In this document: one piece after another, positions 4,987-62,770 of the stretch
How the letters are laid out: each line of letters starts with the position of its first letter
Position numbering within the stretch: position 1 is the stretch's first letter
NCBI RefSeq assembly: GCF_003814705.1
Contig: NZ_RKRA01000001.1
Span: 620,001 to 684,000, forward strand
Direction of reading: 5' to 3'
Length of the DNA: 64,000 nucleotides
DNA from: Georgenia muralis
GTDB lineage: Bacteria > Actinomycetota > Actinomycetes > Actinomycetales > Actinomycetaceae
Notes under the pieces: generated by a model
What the model was told of the DNA's origin: nothing
Seen by the model: only the letters and a program-made list of their open reading frames with translations
The model's database searches: none
Program-made: the position numbers and the translations under genes

Positions 4987-5105
4987 GCCCTCAGTGTCCG
5001 GCGAGGCGGAACGGCGGTCCAGCAAGGAGAGGCTGCCCTTGGCCCGGTGCTCTCGCGGCTCCGGAGGGCTGCTCTCAGGACGGGCAGCAGGTGCCCTCGG
5101 CACAG

Positions 5106-5154
5106 CAGCGGCCCGCGCACGGCAGCGGCCCGCGCACAGCAGCGGCCCGCGCAC
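5106..5154. repeat. 17-bp tandem repeat, 3 copies
   Basis: CAGCGGCCCGCGCAC recurs at 5106, 5123 and 5140 with exact 17-bp periodicity. It lies upstream of the P-type ATPase start and downstream of the Ser/Ala repeat protein. Confidence 0.85.
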
Positions 5155-5162
5155 AGCAGGAA

Positions 5163-5194
5163 GGCGGGCCGTGAGCTCGCACTCACGGCCCGCC
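5163..5194 (-). terminator. Strong hairpin after the Ser/Ala-repeat gene
   Basis: GGCGGGCCGTGAG (5163-5175) and CTCACGGCCCGCC (5182-5194) form a perfect 13-bp stem with a 6-nt loop just past the stop of the minus-strand gene ending at 5216. There is no long T-run, as is usual in very GC-rich actinobacteria. Confidence 0.7.
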
Positions 5195-5215
5195 CTGTGG
5201 GGGTGCTGAGGTGCC

Positions 5216-5806
5216 TCAGTCGTCGCTGTCGTCAGCGGACGAGGCCGAGGCTGCGGACCTCGCCGAGGCGGCCGACTTCGCCGAGGCCGCGGACCTCGCC
5301 GAGGCCGCGGACTTCGCCGAGGCCGCGGACTGCATCGAGGCTGCGGACCGCGCGGACGGCGCAGAGACCGTGCTCGGGGCGGAGGCGGGCGACGGCCCGC
5401 TCGGGGCCGAGTGCGGCGCGGTGGTGACGGCGGCCGACGTGGCCGACGCGACGTCAGCCGTCGTTGCGGAGCCGGCGGTCGCTGCCGAGGGGGAGGTGCC
5501 CGCCGAGCCGGACGTGACCGCCGAGCCGGACGTGGTCGCCGAGCCGGACGTGGTCGCCGAGCCTGCGGTGAGGGAGGCGGGGTCGGTGGCGCGGTCGTCC
5601 ATCGCCGCGACGGAGTCGACGGGTCCGGTGACGGGCGCCTTGCCGGGGAGCACGAGCTCCTGCTTGGTCACCGGCGCCGCGAGCGCCACGGGTGCGATGG
5701 CGTCGGAGTCGTCCGTGGCGGGGTTCGCGGTGGCGACGCCGAGCCCACCGACCACCCCGAGGGCACCGAGCGTGCCGCCGGCGATCCAGAGCCTTCTCGT
5801 GTCCAT
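5216..5806 (-). CDS. Secreted or anchored Ser/Ala-rich repeat protein, unknown function
   Basis: A 196-aa protein I do not recognise. The start at 5806 (MDTRRLW) is chosen because AGGAG lies 6 bp upstream; a second ATG at 5812 would have no spacer. A single hydrophobic segment (about residues 5-25, ending in ATANP) looks like a signal peptide or membrane anchor. The rest is Ser/Ala/Thr-rich with two repeat blocks: SGSATT-like units in the middle and a six-residue SAASAK/SAASAR unit near the C-terminus, encoded by 18-bp DNA repeats around 5250-5340. It ends in the acidic tail DDSDD. A strong hairpin follows the gene and another precedes its ribosome site. Cell-surface or linker-like roles are possible. 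Confidence 0.7.
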   Translation of the reverse strand: MDTRRLWIAGGTLGALGVVGGLGVATANPATDDSDAIAPVALAAPVTKQELVLPGKAPVTGPVDSVAAMDDRATDPASLTAGSATTSGSATTSGSAVTSGSAGTSPSAATAGSATTADVASATSAAVTTAPHSAPSGPSPASAPSTVSAPSARSAASMQSAASAKSAASARSAASAKSAASARSAASASSADDSDD

Positions 5807-5823
5807 GGCCATCTCCTGATGAC

Positions 5824-5864
5824 GACCGCACCGGGCCGGCCCCCTGCGCCGGCCCGGTGCGGTC
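5824..5864 (-). promoter_or_regulatory. 16-bp perfect hairpin directly before the Ser/Ala-repeat gene
   Basis: Positions 5824-5839 are perfectly complementary to 5849-5864, with a 9-nt loop. On the minus strand the hairpin ends about 6 nt before the AGGAG of the gene starting at 5806. It could be the terminator of the upstream aldehyde dehydrogenase gene or a 5' leader structure of the repeat protein. Confidence 0.6.
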
Positions 5865-5977
5865 ATTGGTGATGGGCAAGACTCTGGAGCACGCACGTGA
5901 GAGAGGAAGGAACGCTTCATGAGGAAGTTCTCATCCGCCCCGTGCACAGGTGGCACGGCGCGGTCGTGGCGCGATCC

Positions 5978-7471
5978 TCAGACGTGGGGGTGGGCGATCC
6001 CGACGTAGACCGTCTCGAGGTACTCCTCGATGCCCTCGTGGGAGCCCTCCCGCCCCAGACCGGACTGCTTGACGCCGCCGAACGGCGCCGCGGGGTTGGA
6101 GATGACGCCGGAGTTGAGGCCGAGCATCCCGGTCTCGAGGACCTCCGCCATCCGCAGCCCGGCGTCCAGGCTGCGCGTGAAGACGAAGGAGATCAGCCCG
6201 AGCTCGGTGTCGTTGGCCATGGTCACCGCCTCCTCCTCCGTGGTGAACGTGCTGATGGAGACGACCGGCCCGAAGATCTCCTCGCGGTGCAGCCGCGCCC
6301 GCGGCCCGGCACCGGTGAGGACCGTCGGCGGGTAGAACCAGCCGGGCCCGTCGGGCACCGTGCCGCCGAGCAGCACGCGGGCACCGTGGGCGACGGCGTC
6401 GTCGACGAGCTCGGCGACCTTGCTGCGCTGCTTCTCCTCGACCAGGGCACCGAGGGTCACGCCGTCCTGCACGCCGGGGCCGACGAGGATCTCGCGCACC
6501 TTCGCCACGAGCTTCTCGGTGAACTCCTCGGCGAGGGCGCTGTGCACGAGGAACCGGTTGGCGGCGGTGCAGGCCTCGCCGCCGTTGCGGAACTTCGCCG
6601 CCATCGCCCCGGCGACCGCGGCGTCGACGTCGGCGTCCGCGAGCACGAGGAACGGGGCGTTGCCGCCGAGCTCCATCGAGGTGCGCAGCACCTGGTCGGC
6701 CGCGGCGGCGAGCAGGCCTCGCCCGACCTCCGTGGATCCGGTGAAGGACAGCTTCCGGGTGCGGGGGTCCTTCAGCAGCGGCCCGGTGGTCTCCCCAGCC
6801 TGCGAGGTCGGGATGACGTTGACGACGCCGGCCGGCACACCCGCCTCCGCGAGGATGTCGGCGAGCAGGAGGGACGTCAGCGGGGTGAGCCGCGCCGGCT
6901 TGAGCACCACCGTGCAGCCGGCCGCGAGCGCAGGGCCGATCTTGCGGGTGCCCATCGCCAGCGGGAAGTTCCAGGGCGTGATGAGGACCGACGGGCCCAC
7001 GGGCCGCTTGGTCACCAGGACCCTGGAGCGACCGTCGGGGGCGATCGAGTACCGGCCCGGGGTGCGGACCGCCTCCTCGGCGAACCAGCGGAGGAACTCC
7101 GCCCCGTACGTCGCCTCACCCCTGGCCTCGGCGAGGGGCTTGCCCATCTCGAGGGTCATGAGGAGCGCGAGGTCGTCGGCGCGGGCGGTGACCGCCTCGA
7201 ACGCCCGCCGCAGGATCTCCGAGCGCTCACGCGGGGCGGTGCGGCCCCAGGCTGCCTGGGCGCGGTGGGCGGCGTCCAGCGCCGCCATCGCGTCGTCGGC
7301 GGTGGCGTCGGCGACCGTGGTGAGCACGTCGCCCGTCGCCGGGTCCTCGACCTCGAAACGCCGTCCGCCGCTCGCGTCCCGCCAGGTGCCGTCGATGTAC
7401 AGCCCGGTGTGGAGGGACGCGAGCAGCGTCTCCTTGCGCCGGGTGATGTCCTGGGCGGTCGTCGTCGTCAT
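5978..7471 (-). CDS. NAD(P)-dependent aldehyde (succinate-semialdehyde) dehydrogenase
   Basis: A 497-aa cytosolic aldehyde dehydrogenase, of normal family length. The ATG at 7471 has AGGAG 7 bp upstream, so the longer open frame to 8155 is not used. Landmarks are the PWNFPLAMGTRKIGPAL cofactor/substrate region, the general-base Glu in MELGGNAPFLV and the catalytic Cys in NGGEACTAANR. The C-terminal FGGVKQSGLGREGSHEGIEEYLE is typical of succinate-semialdehyde dehydrogenases (GabD group), which oxidise succinate semialdehyde to succinate in GABA and related pathways. No GABA transaminase gene is adjacent, so the physiological substrate is inferred. It is divergent from the MFS gene. Confidence 0.88.
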   Translation of the reverse strand: MTTTTAQDITRRKETLLASLHTGLYIDGTWRDASGGRRFEVEDPATGDVLTTVADATADDAMAALDAAHRAQAAWGRTAPRERSEILRRAFEAVTARADDLALLMTLEMGKPLAEARGEATYGAEFLRWFAEEAVRTPGRYSIAPDGRSRVLVTKRPVGPSVLITPWNFPLAMGTRKIGPALAAGCTVVLKPARLTPLTSLLLADILAEAGVPAGVVNVIPTSQAGETTGPLLKDPRTRKLSFTGSTEVGRGLLAAAADQVLRTSMELGGNAPFLVLADADVDAAVAGAMAAKFRNGGEACTAANRFLVHSALAEEFTEKLVAKVREILVGPGVQDGVTLGALVEEKQRSKVAELVDDAVAHGARVLLGGTVPDGPGWFYPPTVLTGAGPRARLHREEIFGPVVSISTFTTEEEAVTMANDTELGLISFVFTRSLDAGLRMAEVLETGMLGLNSGVISNPAAPFGGVKQSGLGREGSHEGIEEYLETVYVGIAHPHV

Positions 7472-7748
7472 CGTGAGCTCCTCTCCGTCCTCCTCGAGGC
7501 TAGCCGCGGGCGTCGGTGCGAGCAGGACGAGGAAGGGGCATGGCGGGGACAGCCGTGGCGAAGAGCCGGGGCGAGGTGCCGCCGGCGTGGGGCCGCCAGG
7601 GGGAGGGCCGCCGGTGCGGGCGAAGGGCGCCGGCGGCGCCGCCGCGACAGATCGGCGCCGTTCCCGCGCTACCGTGACGGCGGCGGCCGTCCGGAACGCC
7701 CGACCTGTCCCGCCGGCGCCACCGGCGCGGCCCGACCCAGGAGAGGCG

Positions 7749-9038
7749 ATGTCGCGCACGAACCGTCCGCTCGGCCCGGCGATCCTGCTCGCCGGCATCG
7801 TGCTCGTCGCCGTCAACATGCGACCGGTCATCACCGCCGTCGGACCGGTGCTCCCGCAGGTCGGCGAGGACGTCGGCCTCGGCGCTGCCGCGCTCGGGAC
7901 GCTCGGTGCCGTGCCGGTCCTCGCCTTCGCCGTCGTCTCCCCGCTGGTGCACCCGCTCCTCCGGCGCTTCGGCCTGGAGCGCACCGTCCTCGCGGCGCTG
8001 CTCGTGCTCGGCCTGGGCACCGTGCTGCGCTCCCTGCCCGGTCCGGCCGCGAACCTGTGGGTGGGCACGGCGGTCATCGGGGCCACGGTCGCCGTGGGCA
8101 ACGTCGCCCTCCCCGTCGCGGTGAAACGGGACTTCCCGCTCCAGGTGCCGCGCACGACCGGGACCTACGTGGCCACCCAGACGGTCTTCGCCGCCCTCGC
8201 CTCCGGGCTGGCGGTCCCGCTCGCCGGTCTGGGCACGTGGCGGCTGTCGTTGGGCATCTGGGTCGTGGCGATCACCGCCGCGGTGGCGCTCTGGCTCCCG
8301 CGGCTGCGTCGGGGCACGTCCGACGCGCGGACCGACGCCGCCCGGGAGGACGGCCGTGCGCCCGCCGGCTCGGCAGGCGAGCCGGCGGACGGGCCGGCGG
8401 ACGGTGCCGCACGGCGCGCAGCACCCGGCGCTGCTGGCATCGGATCGGACGTCCAGCGGCACCGTTCCGTGTGGCGGGCACCGCTCGCCTGGCAGGTCGC
8501 GGCCTACATGGGCCTGCAGTCGACGCCGTTCTACGTCCTCATCACGTGGTTGCCGAGCATCGAGCAGGACCTGGGGATCGGCGCCGCCGAGGCGGGGTGG
8601 CACCTGTTCGGCTACCTGGCGGCAGCCATCGTGGCGAACCTGCTCGCCCCGTCACTCATGCGCGTCGGCGAGGACCAGCGCTTCGCCGCCGTCGCCGTCG
8701 CCGCCCTCATGGTGGTCGCCACGCTCGGCGTGACGCTGTGGCCCGGCGGCATCGTGCTGTGGGTGGTCCTCATGGGCCTGAGCAGCGGGGCGGCGCTCGT
8801 CGTCACCTTGTCGCTGGTGGGCCTGCGCTCCTACGACCACCGCACCGCGAGCCAGCTGTCCGCGATGTCGCAGTCGCTCGGCTACGCGCTCGCCGGCTCG
8901 GCCCTCGTCCTGGCCGGGCTCCTGCGCGACGCCACCGGTCCCGGGCCCCTGCTCCTGGTGTGCCTCGCCGGGGTCGCCCTCGCCCAGCTCGCGCTCGGCG
9001 TGCTCGTGGGCCGGCACCAGGTGCTGCTCAGCGACTGA
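7749..9038 (+). CDS. MFS transporter, CynX/NimT family
   Basis: A 429-aa major facilitator with about 12 membrane helices. The N-terminal stretch NMRPVITAVGPVLP is characteristic of the CynX/NimT (cyanate/nitroimidazole) branch. The start at ATG 7749 has AGGAGAGG close upstream; open frame further upstream is only the shadow of the aldehyde dehydrogenase. A Gly/Ala/Asp-rich cytoplasmic loop (about residues 195-240) separates the two six-helix halves. The substrate is unknown; this family exports or imports small organic anions and some drugs. It stands alone between a divergent dehydrogenase gene and a co-directional secreted PhoX-like gene. Confidence 0.88.
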   Translation: MSRTNRPLGPAILLAGIVLVAVNMRPVITAVGPVLPQVGEDVGLGAAALGTLGAVPVLAFAVVSPLVHPLLRRFGLERTVLAALLVLGLGTVLRSLPGPAANLWVGTAVIGATVAVGNVALPVAVKRDFPLQVPRTTGTYVATQTVFAALASGLAVPLAGLGTWRLSLGIWVVAITAAVALWLPRLRRGTSDARTDAAREDGRAPAGSAGEPADGPADGAARRAAPGAAGIGSDVQRHRSVWRAPLAWQVAAYMGLQSTPFYVLITWLPSIEQDLGIGAAEAGWHLFGYLAAAIVANLLAPSLMRVGEDQRFAAVAVAALMVVATLGVTLWPGGIVLWVVLMGLSSGAALVVTLSLVGLRSYDHRTASQLSAMSQSLGYALAGSALVLAGLLRDATGPGPLLLVCLAGVALAQLALGVLVGRHQVLLSD

Positions 9039-9168
9039 CGCGCTCCGCCGTCCGGTGTCGCGACAACCGTTCCGGCAACGTCCACACCCCTGCCGGTACG
9101 TGTTCGCCTCCCGGCCACCTGGCCTCCCTACGTTCGGGGCACACCCACCACGACCACATGGAGATGTG

Positions 9169-10398
9169 ATGCGCAAGCAGATCCTCACCGGCGCCTTCAC
9201 CGCCGGGCTCCTCGTCACCGTCGCCGCCCAGGCCGGTGCCGCCGACGGGCCGATGGCCTTCGAGCCGGTCGACGGCTCCGCGTACGACCAGCAGAGCACC
9301 GACTGGGACGTGCCGCTGGTCGCGCCCGAGGGCTTCACCCAGGAGCTCGTCGCCGACGAGACCGTCCTGGACATCTACGACGGCGGCACCGACGACCTGA
9401 CCGACATGAACACCGTGAACGAGACCGGCCCGCAGGCCGGCCGCTACCTCATCCGCACCCACGAGGTCGGCTCGAACGGCGCGGTGTCGGTCGTCGACCT
9501 CACCACCGGGGAGGTCCGCGTCGTCGCGCAGGACGCCGGCTTCCGCCGCCTCGACGGGATCGAGTGGACCCCGTGGGGCACGGTGCTCTTCGCCGAGGAG
9601 ACCGCGGGCGGCCGCCTCTTCGAGGGCACCTTCGACGCGAAGGACCCCTTCGGTGAGATGGAGTGGGTCGAGCGTCCCGAGGTCGGCATCCTCCGCCACG
9701 AGGGCATCGGCGCGAGCAACGACGCCGTGTTCGTCATCGACGAGCTCAACGGCGGCTCCATCTACAAGTTCGAGCCCACCGTGCGCGGCGACCTCGCCGA
9801 CGGCCGGCTCTACGCCCTCAAGCTCACCGGTCTCGACGACGCCGACCAGGTGTGGGGCCAGGACACCTACGAGGAGAAGGTGGGCGCCTTCGAGTGGGTC
9901 GCGCTCGACATGGAGCAGGTCGTCGTCGACACCGACGCCGCGGCGGACGCGGTCAGCGCCACGGAGTTCGGGCGCCCCGAGGACGTCGAGCTCATCGGCC
10001 AGACCCTCTACGTCGCGAACACGTCCGAGGACCGGGTCGTCGCGATCGACCTCAACGAGGAGGTCCTGACCTCCTTCGTCCACGCCGGGGACAACGTCCC
10101 CGTGGAGAACCGCTCCGCGGCCGTGACCGGCTTCAACGGTCCGGACAACCTCGCCAAGGGCCCCGACGGCCGCCTCTGGGTGGTCGAGGACAACGTCCCG
10201 TCGGACATCTGGGTCGCGGGCAAGGACGCCGATCAGGACGGCGCCGCCGACTCGGTCGAGCTGTTCGCCTCGCTCAAGGACCCCGGCGCCGAGATCTCCG
10301 GCATCTACTTCGGCAAGGACCCCAGGACACTCTTCTCCAACATCCAGCACCCCGCCAAGGCCCTGGCCGACGGCACGTGGGCGATCACGGCCCGCTGA
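9169..10398 (+). CDS. Secreted PhoX-like (DUF839) protein
   Basis: A 409-aa exported protein. Residues 1-24 form a signal peptide ending near AGAADGP. The rest resembles the PhoX/DUF839 beta-propeller family of Ca2+-dependent phosphatases: RRLDGIEWTPWGTVLFAEE, NDAVFVIDELNGGSIYKF, and GFNGPDNLAKGPDGRLWVVED are typical blade sequences. Start ATG 9169 follows GGAGATGTG. It would act outside the cell or at the envelope, releasing phosphate from organic esters if catalytically intact. A weak PHO-box-like half-site lies about 50 bp upstream. A terminator-like hairpin and tandem repeats follow the stop. Enzyme activity is inferred from the family. Confidence 0.8.
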   Translation: MRKQILTGAFTAGLLVTVAAQAGAADGPMAFEPVDGSAYDQQSTDWDVPLVAPEGFTQELVADETVLDIYDGGTDDLTDMNTVNETGPQAGRYLIRTHEVGSNGAVSVVDLTTGEVRVVAQDAGFRRLDGIEWTPWGTVLFAEETAGGRLFEGTFDAKDPFGEMEWVERPEVGILRHEGIGASNDAVFVIDELNGGSIYKFEPTVRGDLADGRLYALKLTGLDDADQVWGQDTYEEKVGAFEWVALDMEQVVVDTDAAADAVSATEFGRPEDVELIGQTLYVANTSEDRVVAIDLNEEVLTSFVHAGDNVPVENRSAAVTGFNGPDNLAKGPDGRLWVVEDNVPSDIWVAGKDADQDGAADSVELFASLKDPGAEISGIYFGKDPRTLFSNIQHPAKALADGTWAITAR

Positions 10399-14563: not shown

Positions 14564-14588
14564 CGTCGGGTGCCCTGCGGCACGTCGG

Positions 14589-14661
14589 TGGAGCTAGGGG
14601 GATTCGAACCCCCGACCTTCTCATTGCGAACGAGACGCGCTACCAACTGCGCCATAGCCCC
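14589..14661 (-). tRNA. tRNA-Ala (anticodon CGC)
   Basis: A 73-nt cloverleaf on the minus strand. The acceptor 5' strand GGGGCTA pairs with TAGCTCC (one G-T pair). The D arm contains AGTTGGTA. The anticodon stem TCTCG/TGAGA encloses loop TTCGCAA with anticodon CGC, reading GCG (Ala). The T arm is GGGGG TTCGAAT CCCCC. The 3' CCA is not encoded (discriminator A is followed by CCG), as is common in actinobacteria. A terminator follows. Confidence 0.97.
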
Positions 14662-49895: not shown

Positions 49896-50015
49896 ATGAC
49901 CGTTCGGACATCCCTCCCGCCGGGGCACGACGTCGCCGACGACGCCGCCCCGGTGCACGCGGCCGCCCGGGCGCACCACCAGCGCGCCCCTCTCCCGGAG
50001 GACGAGGAACCATGA
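49896..50015 (+). CDS. Candidate 39-aa small protein/leader overlapping the PFOR start
   Basis: ATG 49896, preceded by GTGAGG at 5-bp spacing, opens a 39-codon frame whose TGA overlaps the PFOR ATG by 4 nt. The peptide is His/Ala/acid-rich (MTVRTSLPPGHDV to HHQRAPLPEDEEP) with no recognisable domain. The overlap geometry equals that of the next two genes. A chance frame in GC-rich DNA is possible, but coupling would make it a translational leader. Confidence 0.4.
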   Translation: MTVRTSLPPGHDVADDAAPVHAAARAHHQRAPLPEDEEP

Positions 50016-53000
50016 GTGCTCAGCCGTACCCCGGCACGCCCGCCGTCATCAACGGCAACGGCGCTGTCGCCCATGTCATGCGGCACGTCTGCGGCGGGGT
50101 CATCGGCTACCCGATCACCCCGTCGACGGAGATCTCCGAGCTCTACGAGGCGGCCCGCGCCGAGGGCGGCCTCAACGTGTGGGGACGGCACCCGTTCTTC
50201 TTCGAGCCCGAGGGCGAGCACTCCGCCCAGAGCGGTGCGCTCGGCGCGGCGCTGACCGGCGGCCAGTACATCTCCAACGCCTCCTCCAGCCAGGGGATCC
50301 TCTACGCGATGGAGTCGCACTACGTCACCGTCGGCAAGAAGATCGGCGGCTTCGTGCTCCAGGTCGCCGCGCGCGTCGTCTCCAAGCACTCCCTCAACGT
50401 CATGGCCGGCCACGACGACGTCTACGCCCTCCTCCCCTCCGGCTACACGATCCTCTTCGGCTCCTCCCCGCAGGAGGCCGCCGACCTCGCCGCCATCGCC
50501 TACCGCACCTCCGCGCTCTCGCTCATCCCGGTCACCAACGCCATGGACGGCTTCACCACGAGCCACATGCTCAGCGAGGTCCTCCTGCCCGAGCCGGAGC
50601 TGCTGCGGAACTACCTCGGCGACCCCGCCGGGCGCATCCCGTGCCCGACCGTGGCGCAGGAGCTGCTCTTCGGCGCCAAGGGCCGCGTCTTCCAGCTCGG
50701 CCAGTACCTCGAGCGGCACGCCGCCGAGATCCGCGAGGACGACGACCGCGCCCTGCGCGCCTACCTCGACGCCGCCGCGGACGCCGTCGAGGCCGACGAC
50801 GACGGCGACCTCCTCGACGGCACGCTGCCCTGGCTGCCCGAGGAGCTCCACGGCCAGTGGCGGCGCCAGTGGACCGGCGCGTACGCGCGGGGCACCCGCC
50901 AGCTCGTCCCCGCGCTGGTCGACGTCCACAACCCCGGCGTGACCGGGCCGGTGCAGAACCAGCCGGACTTCCAGGCCGGCGCCGTCGACCACCGCACCCA
51001 CTTCGCCGCCGACGTCCCCGCGCTCGCGCGCCGCGCCATGGCCGAGTACGGCGACCTCACCGGCCGTCGCTACTCCCCGCTGCACACCTACGACTGCGAC
51101 GACGCCGACTACGTCATGGTCGGCCTCGGCTCCATCACCGACGACGTCCGCGCCGTCCTGCCGCACCTGCGGGCCCAGGGGCTCAAGGTCGGCGTCGTCT
51201 CCGTCAAGCTCCTCCAGCCCTTCCCCGAGGCCGAGCTCGTCGAGGCGCTGCGCGGCAGGACGGCCGTGACCGTCCTCGAGCGCTCGGACACCACCGCCCT
51301 GACCGACCTCGTCACGTCGGCGCTGTTCAAGGCCCGCGCGAACGCCGACGCCGCGGCCGGTAACGAGGGCGCCAGCGCCGACGGCGTGACGCCCGCCCTG
51401 CGCTACCCCCACCTCCCGGCGCTGGAACGCATGCCGCGCCTGACGACGGCGATCTTCGGCCTCGGCGGGCACGACGTCCAGCCCCGCCACCTCGTCGCCG
51501 CCTTCCAGAACATGGCCGACGGCGACGGCGCGCCGCTGGTCTACCTCGGCTCGCAGTTCTTCGCCGAGAACCCCGCCCCGCACATGGCCGAGGTCCAGGA
51601 CCGTCTGCGGGCGGCCTACCCCGACACCGAGCTCATGGCACTGCGCACCGGGCCCAACCCGGTCCTGCTGCCGCCGTCGGCGCTGCGCATCCGCTTCCAC
51701 TCGGTCGGCGGCTACGGCACCATCGCCACCGGCAAGCTGCTCACCGACATCCTCGCCGGCGTGCTGGGCATGCACTCCAAGTCCGCGCCGAAGTACGGCT
51801 CGGAGAAGTCCGGCGCCCCGACGAACTACTACATCACCCTCAGCCCCGAGCCGGTCCTCATCTCCAACGCCGAGCTCGAGGACGTCGAGATCGTCATCTC
51901 CCCCGACCACAAGGCCTTCGTCCACACCAACCCGCTCAAGGGCCTGGCGCGCGGCGGCACGTTCATCCTCCAGAGCGACCTCGCCCCCGCGGAGGTCTGG
52001 CGCGAGCTGCCCCGGCACGCCCGCCGCACGATCCGCGAGCGCGAGATCCGCTTCCTCGTCGTCGACGCCTTCCGCGTGGCCAAGAAGCACGCGCCGACGC
52101 CGGAGCTCGAGACCCGCATGATGGGCATCGCGTTCATCGGCGCGGTCGCCGGCCACGTCGACCGCGTCACCGGCGGCGCCGCGCCCGAGGTCATCGCCGA
52201 GAAGGTCCGCGCCCAGATCGCCAAGAAGTTCGGCGGCAAGGGCGAGGCCGTCGTCGAGGGCAACATGGCCGTCATCCGCGAGGGCATGGCCGCCACGACC
52301 CCGATCGACTACGACGCTCCCGCGTTCGTCGCCATCGACGCCGAGGCCGCCCCGCGCACGGTGCGCACCGTGGCGCTGTCCGCCGCGATGTGCCCGGCGA
52401 CGACGACGCCTCGGCCCAGCGCCCTGTTCGACCCGGCGTACTACGAGGACCTCGCCGCCCGCCCCTTCCGGGAGGGCACCATCGGGGAGTCCCCGGTGCT
52501 GCCCGGCGCCGGGCTGTTCATGCCGTCCGGGACCGGTGCGGCGAAGGACAAGGGCGTCTTCCGGCGCAGCGTGCCGGTCTTCGACCCGACGTCCTGCACG
52601 GGCTGCCTCGAGTGCGCCCTGGTGTGCCCCGACGTCGCCATCCCCAACACCGTGCACGAGATCCACGACCTGCTCCTCGCCGGCATCGCGCCGCTGGAGG
52701 TCACCGAGGCGCAGCGCGCGACCCTGCGCGCGCAGGTGCCGGGCCTGGCCGCGCGGGTGCGCGAGGCCTACCGGCAGGACCGCACCTACCGCCCCTTCCA
52801 CGAGGTCGTCGCCGAGCAGGCGGCCGGCCTCGACGTCGACCAGCCGAGCTTCGCCCGCACCGTCGGCGCCCTCGTCAGCCGTCTCGCGCTGTACCCGGTG
52901 GCGCGGCCGCGGCCCTTCTTCGACGCCATGGAGAAGGACGTCCCCGGCACCGGCGGCCTGTTCACCGCCACCATCGACCCGTGGAAGTGCACCGGCTGCC

Positions 53001-55198
53001 TGCAGTGCGTGCAGGTCTGCGGACCCGGCGCGCTGACCGAGGCCGTCCAGGACGCCGACGTCCTCGCCACGCTCGAGGACCGCTTCGAGATCATGACGAC
53101 GCTGCCCAACACCCCGCGCCGATTCGTCGAGGGCTCGACGACGCCGGACGGCGACCTCAAGCGCCTCATGCTCGACCACGAGAACTTCTACGCCACCACC
53201 GGCGGGCACGGCGCCTGCCGCGGCTGCGGCGAGGTCACCGCGATCCGGCTCGTCACCTCCATGAGCCACGCGCTGGGCGAGGAGCGCCGCCGGGCCCACC
53301 GGCGCGAGCTCGACGCCCTGGTGACCGATCTCCGGACCAAGCTCGCCTCCTTGGGCGGCGCGGGCACCGCGGGCGCGGCCGGCGACGGCGCGGCCGCCCT
53401 CGCGGCGCGGCGCGCGCGCATCACCGAGGCGGTCGACACGCTCGAGGGCCGCCTGTTCCTCTACGAGGGCGGCCCGACCGGCAACGGCCCGGCCTCGACG
53501 GTCGTGGCCAACTCGACCGGCTGCTCGAGCGTCTACTCCTCGACGATGCCGTTCAACCAGTACCTCGACCCGTGGGTCAACAGCCTCTTCCAGGACGCCC
53601 AGCCCCTCGCCAAGGGGATCTTCGAGGGCATCAGCGCCCAGGCCGTCCCGGCCGTGCGGGCCCTGCGCACCGCCCGCCTGGAGCTCGCCGACGCCTACGA
53701 CCCGGCCCGCCACGACGCCGAGCTGCGGGTGCTCAGCTGGTCCGGGTTCACCCCCGACGAGCTCGCGCTCCTGCCCACCGTGCTGACGATCGGCGGTGAC
53801 GGCGCGAGCTACGACATCGGCTTCGGCGCGATGTCTCGCGTGCTGGCCTCGGACACCCCGGTGAAGATGATGGTGCTCAACTCCGGCGCCTACTCCAACA
53901 CCGGCGGACAGGCCTCCACCGCCAGCTACACCGGCCAGGACTCCGACCTCGCCCGCTTCGGCAGCGCCCACGACGGCAAGCACGAGGGCCGCAAGGAGCT
54001 GGCCCTGCTGGCCTCCTTCCACCCGAACGTCTACGCGTGCGCCACCTCGACCGCCCTGTACGGGCACTTCCTCAAGGCCTCGATGGAGCTGCTCACCTAC
54101 GGCGACGGCCCGGCGGTCATGGACGTCTACACCCCGTGCGGCACGGAGAACGGCATCCCCGAGGACGCCTCGAACGCCCGCTCGCGCCTGGCGGTGGAGA
54201 GCCGGATGGCGCCGGTGTTCGTCCACGACCCGCGCCGCGGCTCCACCCTGCACGACTGGTTCTCCCTGGACGGCAACCCCGACGTCGACAGCACCTGGAC
54301 GACGTCGACCCTGCAGTACGTCGACGACGAGGGCCGCCCGCAGCTCATGACGACGCCGTTGACGCCGGCCGAGTTCGCCCTCGGCGAGGCCCGCTTCACG
54401 AAGCACTTCCGCCGGCTCGACCCGGCCCGCGAGGCCGACGCCGTCCCGGTCGACGAGTACGTCGAGCTGCCTCCCGACCGGCGCGCGGGCAAGGTCCCGT
54501 TCGTCCACGCCACCGACGACGACCGTCGCCTCATCAAGGTGGCCTGCTCCTCCTCGGTCGTCGCGCTCGTCGAGGACCGGCGCCGCTACTGGCAGACCCT
54601 GCAGTACCTCGCCGGACGGCACGAGGCCCAGCTCACCGCCCTGCACCGCGGCGACCTCGCGGCGCTCCAGGCGGCCTACGACGAGGCGGTCACCGCGCGC
54701 GAGACCTCCCTGGACGACATCGCCCGCGCGATGACCGAGCTCGCCACGGCGGCGCCAGGTGCGGCCGGGGCGTTCGGCCTGGGCGGCGGTCTCGGCGCCG
54801 GCGGCCTCGCCATGACGGGCGCGGGCGCGGCCGGTGCCGGCGCGGCCGGTGCCGGCGCGGCCCGTGCCGGCGCGGCCCGTGCCGGCGCGGCCCGTGCCGG
54901 CGCGGCTGGTCCCGCCGCGGCTGGTCCCGGCGCGGCCGCCGCGGCGCCGGGCGCCGTCGCCACGATGGACCTGCCCTTCTTCCTCGACCCCGCCGACCAG
55001 GCCCTGTGCAACGACTGCGGCACCTGCTACCAGGAGCTGCCCCAGTTCTTCGAGAAGACGACGGCGATCATCGACGGTGAGGTCCGCACCGTGGCCCGGA
55101 TGATCCCGGGCTCCCTCGAGGGCGTCGAGATCACCCCCGAGCTGCAGCGGCGCATCGACCGCGTCAAGGCCACCTGCGACGGGGAGATCATCCGATGA
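50012..55198 (+). CDS. nifJ: Pyruvate:ferredoxin (flavodoxin) oxidoreductase with C-terminal ferredoxin domain
   Basis: A 1728-aa oxygen-sensitive enzyme: pyruvate + CoA + oxidised ferredoxin to acetyl-CoA + CO2 + reduced ferredoxin. Order: Pyr domain (about 1-260), domain II (about 360-450), gamma/EKR domain (about 560-780; YGSEKSGAPTNYY), two-cluster Fer4 domain (CTGCLECALVCP at 862-872, CTGCLQCVQVC at 993-1003), TPP domain (about 1060-1500; GACRGCGE, GGDGASYDIG, LNSGAYSNTGGQ, CGTENG). Usual length is about 1170-1200; the excess includes inserts and a Gly/Ala/Arg linker (1583-1650) leading to a ferredoxin-like domain with Cys1666, 1669, 1672 and 1722. The stop overlaps the Nfn gene. GAGGA precedes ATG 50012. 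Confidence 0.93.
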   Translation: MSAQPYPGTPAVINGNGAVAHVMRHVCGGVIGYPITPSTEISELYEAARAEGGLNVWGRHPFFFEPEGEHSAQSGALGAALTGGQYISNASSSQGILYAMESHYVTVGKKIGGFVLQVAARVVSKHSLNVMAGHDDVYALLPSGYTILFGSSPQEAADLAAIAYRTSALSLIPVTNAMDGFTTSHMLSEVLLPEPELLRNYLGDPAGRIPCPTVAQELLFGAKGRVFQLGQYLERHAAEIREDDDRALRAYLDAAADAVEADDDGDLLDGTLPWLPEELHGQWRRQWTGAYARGTRQLVPALVDVHNPGVTGPVQNQPDFQAGAVDHRTHFAADVPALARRAMAEYGDLTGRRYSPLHTYDCDDADYVMVGLGSITDDVRAVLPHLRAQGLKVGVVSVKLLQPFPEAELVEALRGRTAVTVLERSDTTALTDLVTSALFKARANADAAAGNEGASADGVTPALRYPHLPALERMPRLTTAIFGLGGHDVQPRHLVAAFQNMADGDGAPLVYLGSQFFAENPAPHMAEVQDRLRAAYPDTELMALRTGPNPVLLPPSALRIRFHSVGGYGTIATGKLLTDILAGVLGMHSKSAPKYGSEKSGAPTNYYITLSPEPVLISNAELEDVEIVISPDHKAFVHTNPLKGLARGGTFILQSDLAPAEVWRELPRHARRTIREREIRFLVVDAFRVAKKHAPTPELETRMMGIAFIGAVAGHVDRVTGGAAPEVIAEKVRAQIAKKFGGKGEAVVEGNMAVIREGMAATTPIDYDAPAFVAIDAEAAPRTVRTVALSAAMCPATTTPRPSALFDPAYYEDLAARPFREGTIGESPVLPGAGLFMPSGTGAAKDKGVFRRSVPVFDPTSCTGCLECALVCPDVAIPNTVHEIHDLLLAGIAPLEVTEAQRATLRAQVPGLAARVREAYRQDRTYRPFHEVVAEQAAGLDVDQPSFARTVGALVSRLALYPVARPRPFFDAMEKDVPGTGGLFTATIDPWKCTGCLQCVQVCGPGALTEAVQDADVLATLEDRFEIMTTLPNTPRRFVEGSTTPDGDLKRLMLDHENFYATTGGHGACRGCGEVTAIRLVTSMSHALGEERRRAHRRELDALVTDLRTKLASLGGAGTAGAAGDGAAALAARRARITEAVDTLEGRLFLYEGGPTGNGPASTVVANSTGCSSVYSSTMPFNQYLDPWVNSLFQDAQPLAKGIFEGISAQAVPAVRALRTARLELADAYDPARHDAELRVLSWSGFTPDELALLPTVLTIGGDGASYDIGFGAMSRVLASDTPVKMMVLNSGAYSNTGGQASTASYTGQDSDLARFGSAHDGKHEGRKELALLASFHPNVYACATSTALYGHFLKASMELLTYGDGPAVMDVYTPCGTENGIPEDASNARSRLAVESRMAPVFVHDPRRGSTLHDWFSLDGNPDVDSTWTTSTLQYVDDEGRPQLMTTPLTPAEFALGEARFTKHFRRLDPAREADAVPVDEYVELPPDRRAGKVPFVHATDDDRRLIKVACSSSVVALVEDRRRYWQTLQYLAGRHEAQLTALHRGDLAALQAAYDEAVTARETSLDDIARAMTELATAAPGAAGAFGLGGGLGAGGLAMTGAGAAGAGAAGAGAARAGAARAGAARAGAAGPAAAGPGAAAAAPGAVATMDLPFFLDPADQALCNDCGTCYQELPQFFEKTTAIIDGEVRTVARMIPGSLEGVEITPELQRRIDRVKATCDGEIIR
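54833..54907 (+). repeat. 15-bp tandem repeats encoding the Gly/Ala/Arg linker
   Basis: Five in-frame copies of (G/C)GTGCCGGCGCGGC(C/T) at 54833, 54848, 54863, 54878 and 54893, encoding GAGAA/RAGAA units, with decayed copies to about 54937. The linker length is likely variable between strains. Confidence 0.9.
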
Positions 55199-58050
55199 GC
55201 ACCGTCACGCCCCCTCGTCCCGGCCCGGCGCCGGACGCCGCCGAGCTGAGCCGCTACCTCGCGGCACGCAGCGCACTCGACGCCGGCCGCGCCGAGGTCG
55301 AGGCCCTGGAGGCCTCCGCCGGGGTCGCGACCTTCAACGGCCAGGTCGAGCTCCTGCGCCGCCGCCTCCTCGCCCAGCCGCGCGCCTTCCGGGACCTGTT
55401 CGTCGCCGACGGCACGGCCGCCGTCGCCCACGCGTTCCGCCAGCCCGAGCTCGAGCCCACGTTCGTGCACACCCTGTGGCAGACCCTTCTCCGCGAGGAC
55501 GACTCCGCCACGGTCCTCATGCGGTTCCTGTGGGGCCTGCCGCTGGGCCTCAAGCGCAAGTTCATCCGCGGGATCGACCACCACCTGGCCGACCGCTACC
55601 CGATGTTCGCCGGCCTGTCCGACGGGTGGCCCGCCACCGCCAGCATCCCGCCCTACGTGCGCGACGCCGAGTCCCGCGCGCAGGACTTCGGCCTCGTCAA
55701 CCAGGGGTACCTGGGCTACATGAGCCTCGGCTACACCGCGCGCGAGGTGGACCTGTTCGTCTGGCTCGAGGCGCTGCGGGACAAGCAGTGCACCGAGAAG
55801 CCGTGCGAGCTGGGCGTGTTCCTGGCCAACCACCGCGAGCCGGTGGGCGGCTGCCCGGTCAAGATCCACATCCCGCAGATGCTCGAGCTCGTCGGCACCG
55901 GGCGGTTCCGCGAGGCCCTGGAGCTGCTCGAGTCGTGCAACCCGCTGCCCGACGTCACCGGGCGGGTCTGCCCCCAGGAGCTGCAGTGCCAGGGGGTGTG
56001 CCTGCACAAGACCCCCATCGCGATCGGCCAGGTCGAGTGGTTCCTCCCCGAGCGGGAGAAGCTGCGCGACCCCGGGGCCACCGCCCGCCGCCTCGCCGGT
56101 GTCCCCGACCCGTGGGAGCGCGCGGCCCGCCCACCGGTCGCCATCGTCGGCTCGGGCCCCTCGGGCCTCATCAACGCCTACCTCCTCGCGGCCGAGGGCT
56201 TCCCGGTCACGGTCTTCGAGGCCTTCCACGCCCTCGGCGGGGTGCTGCGCTACGGCATCCCCGAGTTCCGGCTCCCCAACACGCTCATCGACGACGTCGT
56301 CGAGAAGATCACCCTGCTCGGCGGGCGGTTCGTCACCAACTTCGTCGTCGGCAAGACCGCGTCCCTGCAGGACCTGCGGGACGCCGGGTTCTGGCGCGTC
56401 TTCGTCGGCACCGGCGCAGGGCTCCCCCGCTTCATGAACGTCCCCGGCGAGCACCTCCTCGACGTCATGAGCGCCAACGAGTTCCTCACCCGCGTCAACC
56501 TCATGCAGGCGCTGCGCCCCGACCACGAGACCCCCCTGCCGGAGACCGCGGGCAAGCAGGTCGTCGTCGTCGGCGGCGGCAACACCGCCATGGACGCCGC
56601 CCGCACCGCCCGCCGGCTCGGTGGGCACGTCACGATCGTCTACCGCCGCACCCGCGCCGAGATGCCCGCCCGCGTCGAGGAGCTCGAGCACGCGCTCGAG
56701 GAGGGCATCACCCTGCTCGCCCTGCGCTCGCCGTCGGAGTTCCTCGGCGACGACGCCACCGGCTTCGTCCGCGCCGCGACCCTGGACGTCATGGAGCTCG
56801 GCGAGCCCGACGAGTCCGGACGACGGCGCCCGGTCGCCACCGGCCGCACCGAGACCATCGACGCCGACCTCGTCATCATGGCGCTCGGCAACGCCGCCAA
56901 CCCGATCATCAAGGACTCCGAGCCGCGCCTGCACACCACCCGCTGGGGCACCATCGACCTCGACCACGACGGCTCGCAGGCGACGACCCTGCCGGGCGTC
57001 TACACCGGCGGCGACGCCGCCCGCGGCGGCTCCACCGCGATCCGTGCCGCCGGCGACGGTCAGGCTGCCGCCCGGGAGATCCTCGGCGAGGTCGACCTCA
57101 GCGAGCAGGACGTCGCCGACCGGGTCGGCCGCGCCCGGCGGTACACCGAGGAGGCCGCCGCCGCGCCGGTCATCGTCGCGAAGACCGACCTCGGCGGGGG
57201 GATCTGCGAGTTCACGGTCCGCGCTCCCGTCGTCGCCCGGGCCGCGCGGGCCGGGCAGTTCGTCCGGGTCCTCCCCCGGCCCGACGGCGAGCTCATCCCG
57301 CTCACCCTCGCCGACTGGGACGCCGACGCCGGCACGATCGTCCTCGTCGTCCAGGGCATGGGGACCTCCAGCCTGGAGATCAACGAGATGTCGGTCGGCG
57401 AGGCCTTCGCCGGCGTCGCCGGGCCGCTGGGGCGGCCGAGCGAGATCCACCTCCACGACGAGGACTCCACGGTGGTCATGACCGCGGGCGGGCTGGGCCT
57501 GCCGCCGGTCTACCCGATCATGCGCGAGCACCTGGCCGCGGGGAACCACGTCACGCTGATCTCGGGCTTCCGCAGCCGGGAGCTGATGTTCTGGACCGGC
57601 GAGGACGAGCGGGTGGGCCGCCTGCAGGCGCGGTGGGGCGACCGGCTCGACGTCGTGTGCACCACCAACGACGGCAGCTTCGGCGTCCCCGGCTTCGTCA
57701 CCGGTCCGCTGGAGGAGCTGCTCGAGGCGAACCGCCGCGGCGAGGGCCGCCCGGTGGCCGAGGTCGTCACCATCGGCCCGCCGCTGATGATGCGGGCGGT
57801 CAGCGACCTCACCGCGCCGTACGCCGTGCCGTGCGTGGCGAGCCTGAACTCGATCATGGTCGACGCCACGGGCATGTGCGGGGCGTGCATGGTCCCGGTG
57901 GTGGAGGGCGGCACGCTGGTGCGCAAGCACGCCTGCATCGACGGTCCCGAGATCGACTCGCACACCATCGACTGGGACAAGTTCCTCCCCCGGTTCCGGC
58001 TGTTCAAGGACCAGGAGCGGGCCAGCATGGTGGCGCACGGGCGCGCCTGA
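55195..58050 (+). CDS. Single-chain NfnB-NfnA fusion (ferredoxin:NADP oxidoreductase, GltD-like plus FNR-like)
   Basis: A 951-aa fusion. N-terminal about 150 residues are unassigned. Then a GltD/NfnB-type Fe-S domain (Cys199, 204, 220; Cys248, 259, 265, 269 in NPLPDVTGRVCPQELQC), FAD loop VGSGPSG (318-324), NAD(P) loop VVGGGNTAMDAAR (458-470) and GVYTGGDAARGGST (601-614). After about 655 an NfnA/PyrK-type flavoprotein: GELIPLTLADWD (698-709), AGGLGLPPVYP, and the [2Fe-2S] segment MCGACM...HACIDGPE (Cys895, 898, 914). Nfn normally has two subunits and couples reduced ferredoxin and NADH to NADPH by electron bifurcation. ATG overlaps the PFOR stop (ATGA), so the two are co-made. Confidence 0.88.
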   Translation: MSTVTPPRPGPAPDAAELSRYLAARSALDAGRAEVEALEASAGVATFNGQVELLRRRLLAQPRAFRDLFVADGTAAVAHAFRQPELEPTFVHTLWQTLLREDDSATVLMRFLWGLPLGLKRKFIRGIDHHLADRYPMFAGLSDGWPATASIPPYVRDAESRAQDFGLVNQGYLGYMSLGYTAREVDLFVWLEALRDKQCTEKPCELGVFLANHREPVGGCPVKIHIPQMLELVGTGRFREALELLESCNPLPDVTGRVCPQELQCQGVCLHKTPIAIGQVEWFLPEREKLRDPGATARRLAGVPDPWERAARPPVAIVGSGPSGLINAYLLAAEGFPVTVFEAFHALGGVLRYGIPEFRLPNTLIDDVVEKITLLGGRFVTNFVVGKTASLQDLRDAGFWRVFVGTGAGLPRFMNVPGEHLLDVMSANEFLTRVNLMQALRPDHETPLPETAGKQVVVVGGGNTAMDAARTARRLGGHVTIVYRRTRAEMPARVEELEHALEEGITLLALRSPSEFLGDDATGFVRAATLDVMELGEPDESGRRRPVATGRTETIDADLVIMALGNAANPIIKDSEPRLHTTRWGTIDLDHDGSQATTLPGVYTGGDAARGGSTAIRAAGDGQAAAREILGEVDLSEQDVADRVGRARRYTEEAAAAPVIVAKTDLGGGICEFTVRAPVVARAARAGQFVRVLPRPDGELIPLTLADWDADAGTIVLVVQGMGTSSLEINEMSVGEAFAGVAGPLGRPSEIHLHDEDSTVVMTAGGLGLPPVYPIMREHLAAGNHVTLISGFRSRELMFWTGEDERVGRLQARWGDRLDVVCTTNDGSFGVPGFVTGPLEELLEANRRGEGRPVAEVVTIGPPLMMRAVSDLTAPYAVPCVASLNSIMVDATGMCGACMVPVVEGGTLVRKHACIDGPEIDSHTIDWDKFLPRFRLFKDQERASMVAHGRA

Positions 58051-58197: not shown

Positions 58198-58596
58198 ATG
58201 TCGAGACTTGTGCACTTCGAGATCCAGGCCGACGACCTGGAGCGCGCCAAGACGTTCTACTCCGCCGTCTTCGGGTGGACGTTCGAGGACTACGGGCAGT
58301 TCACCGGCGGCTCTCCCTACTGGGGCATCACCACCGGGCCGGAGGAGGAGCCCGGGATCAACGGTGGCCTGCTCCCCCGGCCGGTCGCCACGCCGGGTCA
58401 GGGTCAGGGGACGAACGCGTACGTGTGCACCATGGCGGTCGAGGACTACGACGCCACGGAACGGCGGATCCTCGACGCCGGCGGCCAGGTGGCGCTGCCC
58501 AAGATGGCGCTGACGGGCATGGCGTGGCAGGGCTACTACCTCGACACCGAGGGCAACACCTTCGGCATCCACCAGCCCGACCCCGAGGCTCGCTGA
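58198..58596 (+). CDS. VOC (glyoxalase/bleomycin-resistance) family protein
   Basis: A 132-aa single-fold VOC protein: VHFEIQADDLERAKTFYSAVFGWTFE at the N-terminus (as pieces) and YYLDTEGNTFGIHQPD at the end, with metal-ligand candidates His6 and Glu near 120. Consistent with a divalent-metal enzyme or binding protein with unknown substrate. GAGGAGG lies 8 bp before ATG 58198. Separated from the redox operon by a terminator. Confidence 0.88.
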   Translation: MSRLVHFEIQADDLERAKTFYSAVFGWTFEDYGQFTGGSPYWGITTGPEEEPGINGGLLPRPVATPGQGQGTNAYVCTMAVEDYDATERRILDAGGQVALPKMALTGMAWQGYYLDTEGNTFGIHQPDPEAR

Positions 58597-61482: not shown

Positions 61483-62514
61483 CTACACCCCGCCGAGCGA
61501 GAAGCAGACCTTGTACGACGCGCCCTGGCCGGAGCCGAGCAGCCTGGTCTCGACCTTGAACTCGACCCCGTAGTGGTGGGTGTTCGTCGTCCGCGCGGCC
61601 AGCACGACCATCTGCTTGACGGACAGCGTGACGACGTCCCGGCCGAGGTCGTCGTCGTCGGTGTCCAGCGCCGTGTTGAGGAAGTCCGCGATGGGCTCCT
61701 CGAGGTACGGCAGGATCGCCTCCGCGCCGTACGAGAGGACCGGGCCGACGAGCGGGATGTACTCCAGCCCCTTCTCGATGCCTTCCGAGGCCACCTTCAC
61801 GAACTGGACGACTCGCCCCTTGAACTTGTCCGGGTCACCGAAGTCGTGCTCCATGAGCTGGACACCGATGACCACCCCGCTCGGCCTGCCGCGGTAGAGC
61901 TCGAGCGAGTCGGGCCGGGTGTCGCCGTGGTCGACGTCGGTGTAGACCTGCGACCGCACGTCCACGGTGCCGGTCGGCGCGGCGAGCCCCAGGATGACGT
62001 ACGGCTCGTCCTCGAACGGTGTCTCGTCGCCGTCGGAGTCGGTCTCGCCGAAGCAGATGAGGCCGGAGTAGTGGAGGACGACGTCGTTGAGGTCGATGGC
62101 CCCGACGTCGGGCCACCAGTACACGGCCCCGCGCTCGAAGACGGTGACCCGCCCGCCCTCGGGGAGGTCGGCCTCGTCGGTCAGCGGCAGCCCGAGCCAG
62201 CTGGTCGCGCCGCCGAGCTCGTCGTAGCGCTGCCCGATCGCCCCGTAGACGTAGCAGATGCCGCCGTCGCGGCGCTGGTACATCGTGCCGTGCTGGTAGC
62301 GCACCCGGAGCCCGGTGCCGACCGGCTCGGGCAGGGCGGCCGGCGCCAGCGGCGCACCCGGTGCGCCGCCCAGCGCCGCGTGCTTCTCGTTGAACGGCGC
62401 CCACTGGAGCGTGTGCAGGTTGAAACCCTGACGGACGACGTCGATCACCTGCTCCGCACGCCTGGAGATCGTCCTCGTGTCGACCGTCTCGTCGAGACGA
62501 ACCTTTGCGGGCAT
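61483..62514 (-). CDS. LGFP-repeat protein, unknown function
   Basis: A 343-aa protein. Residues about 40-140 hold two LGFP-type repeats (ELGGATSWLGLPLTDE and RVTVFERGAVYWWPDVGA), found in actinobacterial cell-wall-associated proteins. The C-terminal about 200 residues (GETDSDGDETPFEDEPYVILGL to VVTLSVKQMVVLAA) form an acidic domain I cannot name. No signal peptide or anchor, which is unusual for LGFP proteins. ATG 62514 has GGAGG 6 bp upstream. Divergent from the LysR gene and convergent with the exporter permease. Confidence 0.75.
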   Translation of the reverse strand: MPAKVRLDETVDTRTISRRAEQVIDVVRQGFNLHTLQWAPFNEKHAALGGAPGAPLAPAALPEPVGTGLRVRYQHGTMYQRRDGGICYVYGAIGQRYDELGGATSWLGLPLTDEADLPEGGRVTVFERGAVYWWPDVGAIDLNDVVLHYSGLICFGETDSDGDETPFEDEPYVILGLAAPTGTVDVRSQVYTDVDHGDTRPDSLELYRGRPSGVVIGVQLMEHDFGDPDKFKGRVVQFVKVASEGIEKGLEYIPLVGPVLSYGAEAILPYLEEPIADFLNTALDTDDDDLGRDVVTLSVKQMVVLAARTTNTHHYGVEFKVETRLLGSGQGASYKVCFSLGGV

Positions 62515-62770
62515 GGTGGCCTCCGGTGCTCGGACGTCGGCAAGGTCGCCGTGCGTCAGGTGGATCGTCCGGCCGACCGGGTGAGGGACGGAAGAGGTGG
62601 TTCCTCCCTGGAACCACCTCTTGACGCGGCGGGGGTCGGCGGGCTGCGGCAGCGCGGGTCCGCAGCCTGCTCCACGAGCGAGGGTCTGCGGCACGGACCC
62701 TTCTGCCACACCCCTCCGCGGCCCTACGATCGGCATCTGCGAGCGCTCCGGCGCCGGGAAGGTGGACGAT

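Follow-up and report, generated by a model that had tools for sequence, protein, structure and literature searches.

The window, a stretch of 64,000 nucleotides from Georgenia muralis (GCF_003814705.1, contig NZ_RKRA01000001.1, positions 620,001–684,000, forward strand), contains an operon of two overlapping genes, the first encoding a long pyruvate:ferredoxin oxidoreductase (PFOR)-like protein and the second a single-chain Nfn protein of the type called pattern C. The two genes were found side by side in all 21 full-length relatives among the matches listed, and the long PFOR ends in a ferredoxin-like domain joined to the core by a predicted disordered linker. We consider it likely that the pair forms a dedicated channel in which electrons pass between pyruvate and NADP(H) by way of the tethered ferredoxin-like domain and the Nfn, with NAD(H) probably as the third partner. 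The principal features, in window positions, are:

50012–55198, plus strand: long PFOR-like protein P0001, 1728 amino acids (open reading frame, domain matches, alignment to PFORs)
55195–58050, plus strand: pattern C fused Nfn P0002, 951 amino acids, NF009415/PRK12779 (open reading frame, domain and profile matches)
55195–55198, plus strand: ATGA overlap of the PFOR stop and the Nfn start
54746–54970, plus strand: low-complexity Ala/Gly/Pro linker of P0001, residues 1579–1653, predicted disordered
54971–55195, plus strand: C-terminal single-[4Fe-4S] ferredoxin-like domain of P0001, residues 1654–1728, with C1666, C1669, C1672 and C1722

An earlier note on this DNA had described a giant PFOR overlapping a fused NfnB–NfnA protein through ATGA, and the reading frames, the domain content and the overlap all bear this description out. 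Its proposal that electrons from pyruvate reach NADP(H) through ferredoxin within one co-translated module is well supported by strict co-occurrence in the loci and genomes examined, coevolution and the presence of a ferredoxin-like domain within the PFOR itself. This domain, built into the PFOR C-terminus, and the extra N-terminal domain of the Nfn are both absent from the earlier note.

Co-occurrence of the long PFOR and pattern C Nfn

A scan of genome contigs kept at least 80 Nfn loci (L023–L102), and more relatives exist. Twenty-one of them (L023–L043) are full-length pattern C loci with 61–78% identity to the window Nfn, and the other 59 among the matches listed (L044–L102) show about 41–51% identity over the best segment. 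The result showed that a long PFOR lies directly upstream, on the same strand, in all 21 full-length pattern C loci among the matches listed. No long PFOR was found upstream of the 59 other Nfn loci, where the available upstream sequence extends over at least 5 kb in 50 and over at least 1.5 kb in 56, that at L050, L064 and L090 (less than 1.5 kb) being too short to tell. Because the pair recurs in the same order in all 21 full-length relatives, the arrangement reflects more than chance, and the condition by which the earlier note would have been refuted, that relatives never co-occur with a PFOR, does not apply. At 13 of the 21 loci the PFOR stop and the Nfn start share four nucleotides (NTGA); at the others the picked starts give spacings of −1 to +90 nucleotides. 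The 21 loci, among the matches listed, belong to six Actinomycetes (for example Cellulomonas chitinilytica and Kineosporia), nine Alphaproteobacteria (for example Rhodopseudomonas, Rhodopila and Tropicimonas; L030, titled 'Proteobacteria' only, was assigned here by us) and six Gammaproteobacteria (for example Photobacterium and Chromatiaceae).

The same linkage was seen in searches of whole families. In the family of the window, pattern C Nfn was present in 10 of 151 genomes and the PFOR tail in 11, those 10 included; in the eleventh, the contig ends inside the Nfn. In the Rhodopseudomonas family, the Nfn and the tail were each found in 14 of 100 genomes, which were the same genomes, at adjacent coordinates. 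The tail sits on a long PFOR in both families, since it was found inside frames of 1657–1846 amino acids. The distance matrices of the PFOR and the Nfn were strongly correlated (r 0.94, 21 rows), and none of 5000 permutations gave a value as high. In the trees of both proteins the actinobacterial set and the gammaproteobacterial set each lie on one side of a branch, with support of 93/97 for the gammaproteobacterial branch of the Nfn tree, and the actinobacteria are placed among the alphaproteobacteria under midpoint rooting only. Taken together, the pair looks obligate.

Its distribution is patchy: the Nfn of the pair was found in two of nine same-genus genomes among the matches listed. In a draw of 296 genomes from the phylum, an Nfn match at E 1e-50 was present in 114; among the matches listed, the window's own was the sole one of full length. 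At E 1e-100, 72,556 plasmid records gave no match that spans 80% of the Nfn. Among flanking open reading frames of at least 110 amino acids (some flanks being short), no third gene was conserved in three or more of 22 loci except for two groups, one that is ABC-transporter-like by eye in 8 of 22 and one neighbour common to three Photobacterium loci. Nor did inspection by eye of the sequence upstream of the pair, in 20 relatives and in the window, show an obvious common regulator site.

For residue comparisons, the PFOR alignment (A1) has 21 rows and the Nfn alignment (A2) 22 rows; L015–L022 were excluded from the alignments, and the Nfn rows of L028 and L033 in A2 begin at the match, both of these loci having the ATGA overlap. 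L040 was kept in A2 and left out of A1 because its PFOR was matched in two frames. At this locus (Photobacterium sanctipauli, 4963–9935) the change of reading frame falls near residues 331–341 and is either an assembly error or a real break. In L059 (6634–16217), from a gammaproteobacterial metagenome-assembled genome, separate POR-like pieces, lying on both strands, flank two sets of Nfn-like matches; this is another, differently built POR/Nfn cluster, and weaker POR-like matches lie elsewhere in the loci L059 and L099.

The long PFOR and its ferredoxin-like tail

The domain scan showed that P0001 carries POR_N, PFOR_II, POR and Fer4 domains, and the protein aligns across every core region to the single-chain PFORs of Moorella (6cin) and Desulfovibrio africanus (1b0p), with which it shares domain order and the 12 cluster cysteines. 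The core features, all on the plus strand, are:

50096–50605, plus strand: POR_N (domain I), residues 29–198, containing the YPITPS, GEH and AAR stretches
51104–51298, plus strand: PFOR_II, residues 365–429 (domain match)
51707–52288, plus strand: POR gamma domain, residues 566–759, the sole PF01558 match found in the host genome
52595–52627, plus strand: first CxxCxxCxxxC motif of the two-cluster ferredoxin domain, C862–C872
52628–52987, plus strand: residues separating the two cluster motifs, modelled as mostly helical
52988–53020, plus strand: second CxxCxxCxxxC motif, C993–C1003
53216–53521, plus strand: proximal-cluster CxxC (C1069, C1072) and the stretch to C1171, with two long predicted helices
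53795–53911, plus strand: thiamine pyrophosphate (TPP)-binding motif region GDG...SNTGGQ, residues 1262–1300

The 12 core cysteines expected for three [4Fe-4S] clusters are invariant in all 21 long PFORs of A1, as are the YPITPS, GEH, AAR and SNTGGQ stretches, in which we place the residues that bind TPP and pyruvate in the Desulfovibrio enzyme. By its domains and conserved motifs P0001 belongs to the PFOR superfamily, and its score against the PFOR equivalog TIGR02176 (368.5 bits) does not reach the cut-off of 911.35 bits; it is therefore a divergent PFOR, inside the superfamily and outside the equivalog. Its substrate is presumably pyruvate, by homology. Structure searches of the PDB with the model of the C-terminal part (residues 832–1728) ranked PFOR structures first.

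The long PFORs differ from the known enzymes in size and in two spacings. They have 1657–1728 amino acids (L040 left out) and a C-terminal ferredoxin-like domain, whereas the Moorella and Desulfovibrio PFORs have 1171–1232 and lack such a domain. By reading of the alignment, the gap between the two ferredoxin-type motifs is 118–122 residues compared to 45 in Moorella PFOR, and the distance from C1072 to C1171, which includes two long predicted helices, is 84–98 residues compared to 24.

The 75-residue tail domain has a C-x2-C-x2-C motif and a distant cysteine, and these four cysteines are invariant in the 21 rows of A1. A profile scan of three copies showed a resemblance to the single-cluster ferredoxin families Fer4_15 and Fer4_13; at the Fer4_15 cut-off of 22.4 bits, the L027 copy scored above (25.9 bits) and the window and L043 copies below (21.3 and 16.5 bits). 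The linker that precedes the domain is 33–75 residues long across the long PFORs and consists of 52–92% Ala/Gly/Pro/Ser/Thr; in the AlphaFold model of the window copy its predicted local distance difference test (pLDDT) values are 25–29. The tail and linker are an apparent tethered electron shuttle.

The genome of the host also encodes pyruvate dehydrogenase E1 (PDH E1) and pyruvate formate-lyase, so the long PFOR would be its third means of converting pyruvate to acetyl-CoA (CoA, coenzyme A). These genes fit the facultative lifestyle suggested in the earlier note, and the host is probably a facultative organism.

The fused Nfn and its altered sites

P0002 matched NF009415/PRK12779 over its full length (residues 16–949; 1659.9 bits, cut-off 1519), in the order Fer4_20, NfnB-like flavoprotein and NfnA-like C-terminus. 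Liang et al. (2019; PMC6405883), in the part of the paper accessible to us, define pattern C of fused Nfn proteins with Mobiluncus curtisii ADI67453 as the type, remark on its extra 200 residues and call for attention to this pattern. P0002 has the same build, with NfnB first, NfnA last and about 200 amino acids more than other fused Nfn proteins, and the actinobacterial and alpha- and gammaproteobacterial hosts named in that part are those found for its relatives. The features of P0002 are:

55336–55776, plus strand: helical conserved N-terminal domain, residues 48–194 (model and alignment)
55780–56055, plus strand: Fer4_20 two-cluster region, residues 196–287, with Asp196 at the position of a pattern A/B Cys
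56137–57081, plus strand: NfnB-like flavoprotein/NADPH domain, residues 315–629
57172–58029, plus strand: NfnA-like flavin adenine dinucleotide (FAD)/NAD/[2Fe-2S] domain, residues 660–945 (alignment and motifs)
57292–57294, plus strand: Leu700, which replaces the flavin-motif Arg
57862–57936, plus strand: 2Fe-2S motif of the NfnA half

Both halves align over nearly the whole length of the two-subunit NfnAB/NfnI enzymes of Pyrococcus furiosus (5jca) and Thermotoga maritima (4ylf). Residues 188–629 match the large subunit (362.2 bits to 5jca_L) and residues 660–945 the small subunit (224.4 bits to 5jca_S), and the P0002 model matches both chains. P0002 differs from these enzymes in being one chain, in having lost the flavin-motif Arg and in its N-terminal domain, for which they have no counterpart. 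In this domain 31 of 147 columns are invariant; profile and structure searches gave no convincing relative in Pfam or the PDB, the candidates at E 0.29 and 0.075 being judged chance.

Two cofactor sites are altered throughout pattern C. Six Cys and Glu281 are retained in the Fer4_20 region, but Asp (Asp196 in P0002) takes the place of the initial Cys of the canonical R-C-x-x-C in all 22 rows of A2, whereas the equivalent residue is Cys in all 70 pattern A/B proteins compared, which came from the phylum-genome and genome-contig searches. This Cys presumably ligates the outer, ferredoxin-facing cluster, by analogy with dihydropyrimidine dehydrogenase. The remaining NfnB cluster ligands and the NADPH-site RR are conserved in all 22. 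Every pattern C protein of A2 has lost the Arg of the R-x-P-L-T flavin motif in its NfnA half, with Leu in its place in 21 and Phe in one; this Arg was present in 58 of 64 pattern A/B NfnA reading frames, the other six not being matched by the motif pattern. The 2Fe-2S motif DxTGMCGAC is present in all 22, including its Asp, and conservation across the NfnA domain is strong. The condition that, according to the earlier note, would refute its proposal, a lack of the NfnA flavin and ferredoxin sites, therefore fails in part: the 2Fe-2S motif is kept, but the flavin motif has lost its Arg. Since the FAD-motif Arg and a 4Fe-4S Cys of NfnB are replaced in all 22 members, the cofactor chemistry, and with it the NAD(H) branch and bifurcation, may differ from that of NfnAB.

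The altered sites would also be expected of a non-bifurcating pyruvate:NADP+ oxidoreductase (PNO), with the same channel and an NfnA half that has no flavin/NADH coupling and a structural or regulatory role. The PNO of Euglena and Cryptosporidium joins PFOR to a cytochrome P450 reductase-like domain in one chain; the present pair would resemble it in coupling PFOR directly to an NADP reductase and differs in that the Nfn is a separate chain and a ferredoxin arm is present. Retention of the complete 2Fe-2S motif and the strong conservation of NfnA, unexpected had its chemistry been lost, argue against this explanation, which we consider unlikely but worth keeping in view.

The proposed channel, its alternatives and its meaning

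In the proposed channel, the PFOR core would decarboxylate pyruvate with TPP and CoA, as its homologues do, and pass electrons through its three [4Fe-4S] clusters to the tethered ferredoxin-like domain, which would hand them on to the fused Nfn at its outer 4Fe-4S cluster. The Nfn may dock through its extra N-terminal domain, the helical inserts of the PFOR or both. Inside the Nfn the electrons would go on to the flavin of NfnB and to NADP(H), and the NfnA half, by homology, would connect this flavin to NAD(H). The most likely net reaction, pyruvate + CoA + NADH + 2 NADP+ ⇌ acetyl-CoA + CO2 + NAD+ + 2 NADPH, would be confurcating; this stoichiometry is less secure than the channel itself, and we put it forward tentatively, at slightly below even odds. 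In fermenting or oxygen-limited actinobacteria such a pyruvate:NADP oxidoreductase would run towards NADPH, and in phototrophs it might run in reverse towards pyruvate. Gene content, pairing, motifs and linker are observed; physical contact, the shuttle role, direction, bifurcation, substrate and a role at low oxygen are inferred.

Several points weigh against this proposal. Co-occurrence indicates functional linkage, not contact. The window tail scored below the Fer4_15 cut-off (21.3 compared to 22.4 bits), and both the FAD-motif Arg and the NfnB cluster Cys are lost in every pattern C protein. AlphaFold gave models of moderate confidence (mean pLDDT 75.9 and 69.5), and the C-terminal PFOR model resembles PFOR structures loosely (best TM 0.39/0.31). 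Moreover, other single-chain POR-type frames of 1182–1281 amino acids, which may be either PFOR or of indolepyruvate type, occur beside the long PFOR in the genomes of four of six relatives (G447, G448, G449 and G451), so that free ferredoxin may also be used there.

Alternatively, the PFOR could act as a pyruvate synthase that carboxylates acetyl-CoA reductively, with the Nfn bifurcating electrons from NADPH to NAD+ and the tethered ferredoxin. PFORs are reversible, purple phototrophs assimilate acetate, and the pair occurs in such phototrophs (Rhodopseudomonas, Rhodopila). However, it also occurs in actinobacteria (for example Cellulomonas and Kineosporia) and Photobacterium, where oxidation is expected, and no gene for carbon assimilation was conspicuous among the conserved neighbours in the flanks; we consider this explanation improbable. 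In canonical PFOR and Nfn the electron carrier is a free ferredoxin, but an ordinary co-transcribed pair communicating through a free soluble ferredoxin, with the tail as a structural domain, is very improbable given the strict co-occurrence where examined, the invariance of the tail cysteines and the disordered linker.

Other features of the window are:

58075–58084/58093–58102, plus strand: perfect inverted repeat of 10 bp beyond the 3′ end of the operon, lacking a U tract
58198–58596: small glyoxalase/bleomycin-resistance-like fold protein, immediately downstream of the operon (domain scan)
61483–62736, minus strand: reading frame with LGFP repeats, downstream of the operon (domain scan)
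14587–14661, minus strand: tRNA-Ala (anticodon cgc), the sole tRNA found in the window

The terminator that the earlier note had placed directly after the operon was not confirmed: the scan for intrinsic terminators was negative there, what is present is a GC-rich inverted repeat, and the fold of the region is no more stable than that of shuffled versions (z −0.65). Composition gave no signal of recent foreign origin, the GC content of the operon (73.4%) being close to that of the window (74.7%).

Compared with the accessible part of Liang et al. (2019; PMC6405883), the long-PFOR partner, the tethered ferredoxin, the Cys-to-Asp replacement and the lost FAD-motif Arg go beyond the published pattern C, although the PFOR adjacency may already have been drawn there, as the legend of their Figure 2 names PFOR among the neighbours. 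Among the matches listed in a literature search of titles and abstract openings, with few subscription journals, no description was found of a PFOR that carries its ferredoxin on a tether, nor of one paired with pattern C Nfn; in the accessible text of PMC9012536, 'C-terminal ferredoxin domain' refers to HdrA, not PFOR. Pattern C itself is already described, though uncharacterised; the pairing, the ferredoxin-like tail and the altered Nfn sites are new here. A comparable tie between a fused Nfn and a specific low-potential pathway is AadN of Rhodopseudomonas palustris (PMC9973337), a pattern B Nfn of opposite domain order that, in the part of that paper available to us, is proposed to serve benzoyl-CoA reductase.

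In Poudel et al. (2018; PMC6085437), again in the accessible part, the Mobiluncus protein forms the first branch to diverge in the Nfn tree. If pattern C is a specialised PFOR partner with altered sites, the rooting of this tree deserves re-examination, and the function is directly testable. If the proposed channel is real, engineering would also gain a compact pair of genes for supplying NADPH or pyruvate. In its fullest form, which we hold possible though short of probable, the pair would be a self-contained three-way converter of pyruvate, NADP(H) and NAD(H), with a covalently tethered ferredoxin arm from the PFOR to a fused Nfn of reversed order, no free ferredoxin and an outer Nfn cluster retuned by Asp, that is, a transferable two-gene bifurcating megacomplex letting facultative or oxygen-exposed bacteria use PFOR chemistry. 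A PFOR with a swinging ferredoxin would keep low-potential electrons off free carriers, and perhaps off oxygen, in facultative bacteria.

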